Shown piece after piece: positions 9,736-17,702 of a DNA stretch of 49,805 bases. The position numbers and the translations under genes were made by a program. Location of the stretch: the NCBI GenBank assembly GCA_016933215.1, contig JAFGBH010000015.1, positions 1 through 49,805 on the forward strand, given 5' to 3'. This DNA is from Deltaproteobacteria bacterium. GTDB lineage: Bacteria; Desulfobacterota; Syntrophia; Syntrophales; UBA2210. The notes under the pieces are model-generated. The model was given only the letters and a program-made list of their open reading frames with translations, had not been told where the DNA came from and ran no database searches. Within the stretch, counting starts at the first letter, position 1. Each line of letters opens with the position of its first letter.

Positions 9736-10725
9736 ATGGATGTGCCGGATTTTGAACTGGATACATCCCTCTTAGGAAACTCGAAAACCCTTGATTCTAC
9801 GGTTTATTATGATCTCGTGATTGTTGGCGGCGGACCGGCGGCAATGAGTGCGGCGGTTTACGCTGCCCGCAAGATGTTGAATTGTGCGGTGATTACGAGG
9901 GATTTCGGCGGACAGGTACTTGAAACCTCCGAGATAGAGAACTGGCTGGGATTTCAGAGTATCAATGCGCGGGACCTTGTCGCTTCCTTCGTGGAACATG
10001 TGAATAATTTCGACATGGCGGTGGCTTCGGACATGGGCGTTGCCGGAATCGAAAAAGAGGGTGATATCTTCAGGATAAAAACAGAGGACGGGAATGTCTA
10101 TTCCGCAAGAGCAGTAATCCTGGCGACGGGTAAGCGCCACCGACCCCTGGCCGTACCGGGAGAAAAGGAACTGGTAGGGAGAGGTGTTGCCTACTGTGCG
10201 ACCTGCGATGCGCCCCTTTTTCGGGATAAAGAAGTAGTGGTGGTCGGCGGAGGAAACTCGGCCTTTACCACTGCGGTCGATCTCCTGAAGGTCGGGGCCG
10301 GTGTGGTCATGGTAAACTTTATCGAGGGATGGCAGGCCGACGAGGCTCTTCAGGAGCGGGTGCACCGGGCCGAAAATGCGAAACTCTTTGATTATCATCA
10401 GGTGGTAAGAATTGAGGGAAAGACCAGCGTCGAGGGGGTCGTGATACAGGAAAGAGAAAAGGGGGAAGAAAAACTGTTGAAGGTGGAGGGTGTCTTTGTG
10501 GAAATAGGCCTTCTTCCGAACAGCGAATCGGTGAAGAACCTGGTTGCCCTGAATGATCTCGGCGAGGTGATTATCGATTGTTCCTGCCGCACGGATGTGG
10601 AGGGGTTCTTCGGAGCGGGCGATGTGACCACCGTTCCCCATAAACAGATTATCATTTCGGCGGGCGAGGGGGCCAAGGCGGCGCTCTCGGCGTACGATTA
10701 TCTGATGAAACACGCATTTGTCTGA
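9736..10725 (+). CDS. FAD-dependent disulfide reductase, AhpF C-terminal/thioredoxin-reductase type
   Basis: A 329-residue flavoprotein with FAD-binding GGGPAAMSAA (residues 31-40), redox pair Cys154/Cys157 in YCATCDAP, a second nucleotide site VVGGGNSAFTTA, and FGAGDVTTVPHKQI at the C-terminal FAD contact. The NADPH-selecting HRRxxxR of classical thioredoxin reductase is missing; the region reads VNFIEGWQADEALQERV, close to the AhpF pattern, which suggests NADH or another donor. Start ATG 9736 is placed by GGGAGGTG at 9723-9730. The next gene begins 10 bases after the stop and encodes a two-fold thioredoxin-like selenoprotein, the expected electron acceptor. Together they look like an AhpF cut into two genes. 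Confidence 0.88.
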   Translation: MDVPDFELDTSLLGNSKTLDSTVYYDLVIVGGGPAAMSAAVYAARKMLNCAVITRDFGGQVLETSEIENWLGFQSINARDLVASFVEHVNNFDMAVASDMGVAGIEKEGDIFRIKTEDGNVYSARAVILATGKRHRPLAVPGEKELVGRGVAYCATCDAPLFRDKEVVVVGGGNSAFTTAVDLLKVGAGVVMVNFIEGWQADEALQERVHRAENAKLFDYHQVVRIEGKTSVEGVVIQEREKGEEKLLKVEGVFVEIGLLPNSESVKNLVALNDLGEVIIDCSCRTDVEGFFGAGDVTTVPHKQIIISAGEGAKAALSAYDYLMKHAFV

Positions 10726-10735
10726 GGAGGGCGTC

Positions 10736-11380
10736 ATGGCACTTATCAAGGAGAAGGACAGAGAAAAACTCATCGGTCTCATGAAGGCGATCGAGGAAGA
10801 CGTCAAAATCGTCATGTTCACCCAGGAAAACGAGTGTCAGCAATGCCAAACTACGAGAGAATTGCTCGAGGAGGTCGCCGCTTTATCGGAAAAGGTCTCT
10901 CTGGAGGTGCGCGACTTTGAGGCGGACGCTGAGGTGGCAAAAAAGTTAGGTGTCGATAAAATTCCGGCAACGCTCATTTTAGGGGAGAAAGACTACGGTA
11001 TCCGCTTTTACGGTGTTCCCGCCGGGTATGAATTTAACGTGCTTATCCAGGATATTCTGGACGTGGGGAAACGATCACCCGGGCTGGACAAAAAAACACT
11101 GAAGGTCCTGGCGTCAATAGATAAGCCCGTTCACCTGCAGGTCTTTATCTCTCCCACTTGACCTTACTGTCCCGGTGCGGTTCGTACCGCTCACAGATTT
11201 GCCATGGCGAATGATACTATCTCCGCCGATATGGTCTCGGGCTCCGAATTTCCCTTTCTCGTCGTAAAATATAATGTCAGTGGTGTTCCCCATACCGTCG
11301 TCAACGAGGAGCACGGCATCGTGGGCTCCCTCCCGGAGAAGGAATTTGCCGAGGAGATCGTAAAGGCCGTCGGTGTATAG
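10736..11380 (+). CDS. Glutaredoxin-like/AhpF N-domain-like selenoprotein with Sec-x-x-Cys (UGA at 11159-11161)
   Basis: A 214-residue protein with two thioredoxin folds, read through an in-frame TGA as selenocysteine. Fold 1 carries Cys34-Gln-Gln-Cys37 and cis-Pro in DKIPATLIL. Fold 2 begins at VHLQVFISPT, then Sec142-Pro-Tyr-Cys145-Pro-Gly-Ala-Val, followed by 70 further residues with the canonical SGVPHTVV cis-proline and ending at TAG 11378-11380. Stopping at the TGA would delete exactly the catalytic half of fold 2. The motif matches CxxCP of protein disulfide oxidoreductases and the AhpF N-terminal domain, with Sec in place of the first Cys. ATG 10736 follows GAGGAGG at 10724-10730. The predicted role is to take electrons from the upstream flavoprotein and deliver them to peroxiredoxins or disulfides. 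Confidence 0.88.
11159..11194 (+). promoter_or_regulatory. UGA recoding site with candidate bacterial SECIS hairpin
   Basis: Downstream of the UGA at 11159-11161, GTGCGGT (11175-11181) pairs with ACCGCTCAC (11186-11194) around a TCGT loop, with one bulged T. The apical loop starts about 20 bases after UGA, the spacing expected for an in-frame bacterial SECIS bound by SelB. Seen by eye; not folded computationally. Confidence 0.65.
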
Positions 11381-16077: not shown

Positions 16078-16392
16078 CTAACAGGAGCAGCAGGAGCCGC
16101 AAGCGCTCATCGCCTTCAGGTTTCCCTTTATGGAAAACCCCGTGCCCCTGGCGGAGGTCACATAATCCACACGAACGGGCTTGACCTCTTCGAGCAGCCT
16201 TTTTTCAATGATAAACCGTGTGCCATTCTCGTCAAAAATCTCATCACTTTCACGTGACTCATCCAGAGCCATCACAAGAGACGGACCTGCTCACCCGCCT
16301 TCGGAAAGCAATACCCGAACCGGTGCATTTTCTCCGCGCTCCTCGAGGATTTTTTTGATCTCTTCCTGTGCTTTTTCCGATACTTCAAACAT
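16078..16392 (-). CDS. HesB/IscA-like selenoprotein (UGA at 16293-16291)
   Basis: A 104-residue A-type iron-sulfur carrier-like protein. Reading starts at ATG 16392 (RBS AAGGAGAT) with MFEVSEKAQEEIKKILEE, passes LLSEGG, then in-frame TGA as residue 34, then AGPSLVMALDE. In cysteine homologs this position is Cys (GGCAGPSL...ALDE), the first metal ligand of the HesB/IscA fold, so selenocysteine is the natural reading. The C-terminus ends ACGSCCSC, replacing the CGC(G) pair of IscA with four cysteines. HesB-like proteins are an established bacterial selenoprotein family. It follows arsR by 87 bases, in an operon with another UGA-containing gene, arsM. The role may be Fe-S or metalloid handling; no experimental function is assigned to this Sec form. 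Confidence 0.87.
16254..16293 (-). promoter_or_regulatory. UGA recoding site of hesB-like gene with candidate SECIS structures
   Basis: Two hairpins compete behind the UGA. One pairs AGG-t-CCGTC with GATGG-c-TCT (16288-16265) and puts its TCTTGT loop only 11 bases after UGA. The other pairs GTG...GCTC with GAGT-CAC (16275-16254) and puts a TGGAT loop about 25 bases after UGA, closer to the usual SECIS spacing. Which one forms was not computed. Confidence 0.45.
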
Positions 16393-16479: not shown

Positions 16480-16824
16480 CTATCCCTCCTGAAGAGATCT
16501 CTTGATAAGGGCCTCATAAAATTCCAGGATACCCCCTATCAGGCAGTAGCAGACCCGGGGTCCGTCAATGGTCCCCTCGATCCATCCCGTCTCTTTCAGG
16601 ATCTTCAGATGCTGTGAAACGCTCGATTGGGCCAAGGGAAGAGCGTTCACGATATCGCCACAGATACATCTCTCGTGTGGGGTCTGATGAGCGAGGATTT
16701 TTATTGTCTCGATACGTGCGGGATGGGCAAGCCCCTTGGAGAGTTTCGCAAGGGTTGATTTTCTCTCCTCAAGAGAAAGTGTCTCTATATTCGGAAGTTT
16801 TCTGCTCTCGCCGCAGTTCATCAT
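16480..16824 (-). CDS. arsR: ArsR-family metalloregulator
   Basis: A 114-residue winged-helix repressor. After LAHPARIETIKIL comes the metal-site helix ERCICGDIV with Cys-x-Cys, as in arsenite sensors (ELCVCDL type), then the recognition helix QSSVSQHLKILKETG and the wing GPRVCYCL. The start is set at ATG 16824, whose ATGA overlaps the true stop of arsM, giving translational coupling; an upstream open frame to 16920 is the arsM tail in another frame. Reading arsM only to its internal TGA would hide this overlap. It probably represses its own operon through the inverted repeat at 17667-17688. Confidence 0.88.
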   Translation of the reverse strand: MMNCGESRKLPNIETLSLEERKSTLAKLSKGLAHPARIETIKILAHQTPHERCICGDIVNALPLAQSSVSQHLKILKETGWIEGTIDGPRVCYCLIGGILEFYEALIKRSLQEG

Positions 16825-17648
16825 TTCTGCTCGGTTCGCTCCCCGCTTATTCTCAGAGGCTTTAAGGCCCTTATGTAGGCGGAAAATACAAGCTGTTCCG
16901 CCCGCGGAGCGACGTTCCATCCCTCGATTATTTCCTCGCTGTTGTCTTTCCGCGTTATTAATATGTGTTCAAATTTTTCCCTGTCAAGGATATTTCTCAC
17001 CTCTCCGGGTGAGATCGCACCGGCAATTCACCCCACGTATGCCGCGGGATCCTCTGTTATCTCCCGGGGAAGGTCTCCCGAGCGCAACACATCGGATATA
17101 ACGATTCGGCCACCCGGTTTCAGGACCCTGAAAATTTCCCCGTAGACCGATTCCTTGTCGGGGGAGAGATTTATAACGCAGTTTGAGAGAACGACATCAA
17201 TGGTGCCGCTCTCGACGGGCAGATTTTCAATTTCACCCAGACGGAACATAACATTGGATGCCTTATGGTCAATCGCGTTTCTCTCTGCCTTTTCTATCAT
17301 CTCCGGTGTCATATCGATTCCTGTGACCCGTCCCGTTTCCCCAACCTCTTTCGCGGCGAGAAGGGCATCGAATCCGGCCCCGCTCCCCAGATCGAGAACG
17401 CTTTCTCCCTTCTTTAATCCCGCCATCGACAGAGGGCTTCCGCATCCGAGGCCGAGATTTGCCTGGCCCGGTCCGAGGGCAAGCTGATCGACGGAGTAGT
17501 CGATCTTTTTCCCCGTATCAAGGATTCCCGCAAGGATTGAGGGTCCGCAACAGCCGGCCGAACATCCCAAACCTGCCGCCCGGGCCATATCGGCATAACT
17601 TTTTTTGACCTGAATTTTGATTCTATCCCGCAACGATTCCATATACAT
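16821..17648 (-). CDS. arsM: Arsenite S-adenosylmethyltransferase, selenoprotein (UGA at 17030-17028)
   Basis: A 275-residue SAM-dependent methyltransferase that methylates As(III). Visible are LGLGCGSP (Cys69), the SAM loop VLDLGSGAGFDALLAA, VLSNCVINLSPDK (Cys157) and LKPGGRIVISDV. After EDPAAYVG the frame meets TGA as residue 207, then continues IAGAISPGEVRNIL...GWNVAPRAEQLVFSAYIRALKP to the tandem TGATGA at 16823. Counting against algal ArsM, Cys69, Cys157 and residue 207 line up with Cys72, Cys174 and Cys224, the arsenic ligands; spacing 157-207 equals 174-224. Selenocysteine therefore replaces an arsenic-binding cysteine. RBS AGAAGG precedes ATG 17648. It is the first gene of the arsM-arsR-hesB operon. 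Confidence 0.88.
16995..17030 (-). promoter_or_regulatory. UGA recoding site of arsM with candidate SECIS hairpin
   Basis: Behind the UGA (17030-17028), TCTCACC (17014-17008) and GGTGAGA (17001-16995) form a perfect 7-bp stem around the loop CGGAGA. The loop begins about 20 bases after UGA, as expected for a SelB-dependent bacterial SECIS. Confidence 0.7.
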
Positions 17649-17659
17649 CCTGACCTTCT

Positions 17660-17702
17660 TTAATCGTTAATCGCCAATATACGATTAAGCTTTTCCTGTC
17701 AA
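17660..17702 (-). promoter_or_regulatory. arsM-arsR-hesB promoter with ArsR-type operator
   Basis: On the minus strand a perfect TTGACA (17702-17697) is followed after 15 bases by TATATT (17681-17676). A perfect inverted repeat TTAATCG-N8-CGATTAA (17667-17688) covers the -10, and a further TTTAATCG half-site adjoins it at 17659-17666. Position and symmetry are those of an ArsR-family operator. The short spacer suggests the basal promoter is weak. Confidence 0.7.

Follow-up and report, generated by a model that had tools for sequence, protein, structure and literature searches.

A probable selenocysteine at a conserved arsenic-ligand position of an ArsM arsenite methyltransferase encoded beside arsR and a HesB selenoprotein gene

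The window analyzed here, a stretch of DNA of 49,805 nucleotides, carries on its reverse strand a gene for an arsenite S-adenosylmethyltransferase (arsM, 16821..17648) that is interrupted by an in-frame UGA codon. The frame, which starts at 17648, runs for 206 residues to a TGA at 17030-17028 and continues for 68 further residues to a stop at 16823-16821; read through, the product has 275 residues with selenocysteine (Sec) at residue 207. This product matched profile NF008823 with 310.6 bits (cut-off 263) over profile positions 5-269 of 272, and since read-through gives a full-length match, the part of the gene 3' of the UGA belongs to the family and is not chance coding. Judged by this match, the gene encodes an ArsM-family arsenite methyltransferase. 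A first-pass annotation had claimed that the frame passes the TGA into a 68-residue ArsM C-terminus and ends in an ATGA overlap with arsR, and both points were borne out, with the ATG of arsR (16824) overlapping the arsM stop. The arsR gene (16480..16824, reverse strand) encodes an ArsR/SmtB regulator (PF01022) with a CxC motif (RCICGD), and its score of 51 bits against NF033788 falls just below the cut-off of 55. Two genes downstream of arsM is hesB (16078..16392, reverse strand; UGA at 16293-16291), which encodes an IscA/HesB-family selenoprotein of 104 residues with Sec at residue 34 (EGGUAGP) and scored 112.7 bits against NF038090 (IscA_HesB_Se; cut-off 85). This HesB protein has a Cys-rich C-terminus (ACGSCCSC).

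Homologs of the window ArsM were drawn from relatives, genome contigs and 395 genomes of the phylum. The exchange between TGA and Cys for which the first-pass annotation had suggested searching ArsM homologs was found, with Cys or UGA at the column of residue 207 in 122 of 122 loci (17 TGA, 53 TGC, 52 TGT and no other codon). Because the loci are best matches to one query, 17:105 should not be taken as the proportion of Sec to Cys forms in the ArsM family as a whole. The TGA loci comprise the window gene and 16 homologs from separate genomes, 52-63% identical to the window protein, and in these 16 a conserved C-terminus follows the UGA. One more TGA row, G156, has 47% identity and lies outside the 17. 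In a maximum-likelihood tree the 17 Sec proteins fall on one side of a branch with support of 99/98, and on this evidence they are a single clade. Two circumstances had been named as threats to a Sec reading, namely a sequencing error at 17028-17030 and homologs with neither Cys nor Sec at this column. An error at the window TGA is excluded because the same UGA occurs in 16 homologs this diverged, a pseudogene was rejected on the same recurrence, and none of the 122 loci lacks both residues.

Downstream of the UGA is a bacterial SECIS hairpin (16995..17014, reverse strand), in which a perfect 7-bp stem formed by UCUCACC and GGUGAGA closes the loop CGGAGA. The hairpin had been placed about 20 bases past the UGA; the structure itself stands, but its stem starts 13 nt after the UGA and only the loop lies 20 nt away. 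The same hairpin, with the stem from 13 nt and the loop from 20 nt past the UGA, is present in 17/17 UGA members, which together with the Cys-or-UGA column takes the observation beyond chance. A mechanical stem rule, devised once the hairpin was already known, gave stems of 7-8 bp in every UGA member and any stem of at least 7 bp in 5 of the 105 Cys members. Across 16 distinct rows, 112 of 112 cells were paired and two stem pairs were changed on both sides (UA/CG and AU/GC), while shifting the partner reduced pairing to 34-59%; the column-shuffle control for this covariation does not amount to a probability, and these bases are also under coding constraint. Published rules for bSECIS elements call for a loop of 3-9 nt with a G in the first two positions, a stem of 4-16 bp, 16-37 nt from the UGA to the loop and an energy of at most -7.5 kcal/mol (PMC13188914), and the window hairpin conforms to them (6-nt loop CGGAGA, 7-bp stem, distance of 20 nt, about -12 kcal/mol). 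As free RNA, the 49-nt stretch 16985-17033 (reverse strand) folds better into a different hairpin, where the 5' arm of the SECIS stem is taken up by pairing with the UGA region; the homologs tested fold otherwise.

The selA, selB and selD genes of the window's genome all scored over their profile cut-offs. An in-frame TGA occurs within selD itself (L128, G000:C61:84488-85417). In the 97.8%-complete, 102-contig assembly of this genome, no tRNA-Sec passed the Rfam cut-off; 31 of the 41 searched genomes have one. Those tRNA-Sec candidates of the window's genome that were examined are ordinary tRNAs. In one relative, the tRNA-Sec gene is flanked by genes for a moeA-like protein and for an Fe-S oxidoreductase; the moeA-like protein had no match in the window's genome, and the Fe-S oxidoreductase had distant matches only. 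The simplest reading is that the missing tRNA-Sec is likely an assembly gap.

A HMMER alignment to CmArsM (4fr0, 4kw7), with chain numbering read off the alignment output, places residue 69 of the window protein at Cys72, residue 157 at Cys174 and residue 207, encoded by the UGA at 17028..17030 (reverse strand), at Cys224. The pairing of U207 with Cys224 and of Cys157 with Cys174, as originally claimed, thus holds in a direct alignment with the crystallised enzyme. All three As(III) ligand positions are kept in the window protein (Cys69, Cys157 and Sec207), and Cys33, Cys69, Cys157 and position 207 are invariant across the 17 Sec members. Because the alignment, the column restricted to Sec and Cys, and the covarying SECIS stem agree, Sec at the Cys224 position is supported, as is the reading of this UGA as selenocysteine from comparative sequence data. 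As(III) is bound at the Cys224/Cys206/Cys207 position of the Cys enzymes, and Cys157-Cys207 of mouse AS3MT (156-206 in human) has been described, after Fomenko et al. 2007, as an As(III)-binding redox pair (PMC4211708). By analogy, Sec207 is likely both an As(III) ligand and the redox partner of Cys157, and the binding and redox role proposed for it fits the published work on the Cys enzyme.

We therefore regard it as highly probable that the window gene encodes an ArsM in which Sec replaces the conserved arsenic-ligand Cys (CmArsM Cys224, human AS3MT Cys206), is incorporated through SelA/SelB/SelD and a SECIS element, and would bind As(III) together with Cys157. The most likely course of the reaction, carried over by inference from the Cys enzymes (PMC4211708), is as follows. 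Sec would be inserted at the UGA by the SelA/SelB/SelD system with the SECIS hairpin directly downstream, after which the Sec207 selenol and the Cys157 thiol would bind As(III) and Cys69 would join as the third ligand for the first methylation. Departure of the methylated product would leave a Cys157-Sec207 selenenyl-sulfide, which cell reductants may reopen more easily than a disulfide.

An alternative is that Sec207 is inserted but serves mainly in general selenol redox chemistry or in methylation of another metalloid (e.g., selenium or tellurium) instead of in arsenite binding. Oxidoreductases make up the majority of selenoproteins whose function is known (PMC2398784), which would suit such a role, yet the family-level match is to an arsenite methyltransferase, arsR is in the same operon, Acr3-like genes adjoin relatives and none of the three As(III) ligands has been lost, and we consider this alternative improbable. 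That the UGA is a true stop, whether the gene makes a 206-residue truncated ArsM, is a recent pseudogene or reflects a sequencing error, is scarcely credible. Translation table 11 does end the frame there and the assembly is without a tRNA-Sec, but UGA recurs in the same column in separate genomes with a conserved C-terminus behind it, the SECIS stem covaries and selA, selB and selD are present.

The surroundings of the gene suggest how it may be controlled. The gene order arsM(UGA)-arsR-hesB(UGA) is found in five members, the window and loci L019, L020, L143 and L144. GC-rich folds were seen 3' of the hesB UGA in four of these five loci. No hesB was found near Cys-type arsM in the 105 loci, a contrast with the Sec members that is only indicative because many of the Cys loci are incomplete. 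Ahead of arsM, the interval 17660..17702 (reverse strand) holds a probable promoter (TTGACA, 17702-17697) and a palindrome, TTAATCGT-N13-ACGATTAA, at 17688-17660; this promoter was absent from the output of a consensus promoter scan. In the window and in L019, L020 and L143, the start of arsM is preceded by a palindrome whose arms are ATCGT/ACGAT, the copies in the last three being similar (ATCGTA/TACGAT), and in L144 by a weaker one. From its sequence and its counterparts in relatives, the palindrome is a probable ArsR operator. The five-gene comparison suggests control of the operon by its own ArsR, which would probably repress it until As(III) opens it. It is possible, though we advance this only tentatively, that the result is an arsenite-induced operon of two selenoproteins in which the Sec-containing HesB/IscA protein works with Sec-ArsM, for example by carrying As(III) or reducing equivalents. 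Other Sec members adjoin Acr3-like, CcdA-like and thioredoxin-like genes, which were named by eye from sequence.

Sec-ArsM is not new as a kind, having been catalogued since 2007-2008. Reviews of 2022 and 2026 list it as a prokaryotic selenoprotein family (PRK11873/NF008823, example WP_011987699.1; PMC9312934, PMC13188914), and because of this listing, attributed to Fomenko 2007 (PMC9312934), the window arsM is not a novel type; the family was already seen in the GOS survey of 2008 (PMC2398784), and its motif is given as UxxG in a 2026 review (PMC13188914). The window protein shares with WP_011987699.1 the family, a single Sec and the UxxG motif (U207-I-A-G210), whereas sequence and species differ and the identity of the Sec position is judged by the motif. 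It shares the methyltransferase core and As(III) ligands with CmArsM (4fr0, 4kw7) and human and mouse AS3MT, but has Sec in place of Cys224, is shorter (275 versus 377-383 residues) and matches only over residues 67-229. The NCBIfam fusion selenoproteins NF041536 and NF041537 have a related ArsM-like domain with Sec but are fused to DUF2284 or AhpD domains and contain 2-3 Sec each, compared to one in the window protein. Membership of ArsM_AhpD_UU or ArsM_DUF2284_UU was rejected (154-156 bits against cut-offs of 510-575). The operon section of one paper in the literature on HesB selenoproteins with arsenic does not mention arsM(Sec)-arsR-hesB(Sec), and this operon may be unreported, which makes it a modest lead.

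In Sec-ArsM, arsenic and selenium chemistry would meet in one active site, where As(III) binding and redox turnover by selenols are expected to differ from those by thiols. The natural Sec clade and the neighboring Cys clade offer a ready pair for probing what Sec gains in arsenic methylation, and the linked HesB selenoprotein may be a lead to the role of that family. Three UGA selenoprotein genes lie within 7 kb of the window. The gene at 10718-11380 on the forward strand (in-frame UGA at 11159-11161) encodes a thioredoxin/glutaredoxin-like protein with the UGA in a UPYC motif (FISPTUPYC), and its product probably belongs to the known AhpF-N-like Grx selenoprotein family.
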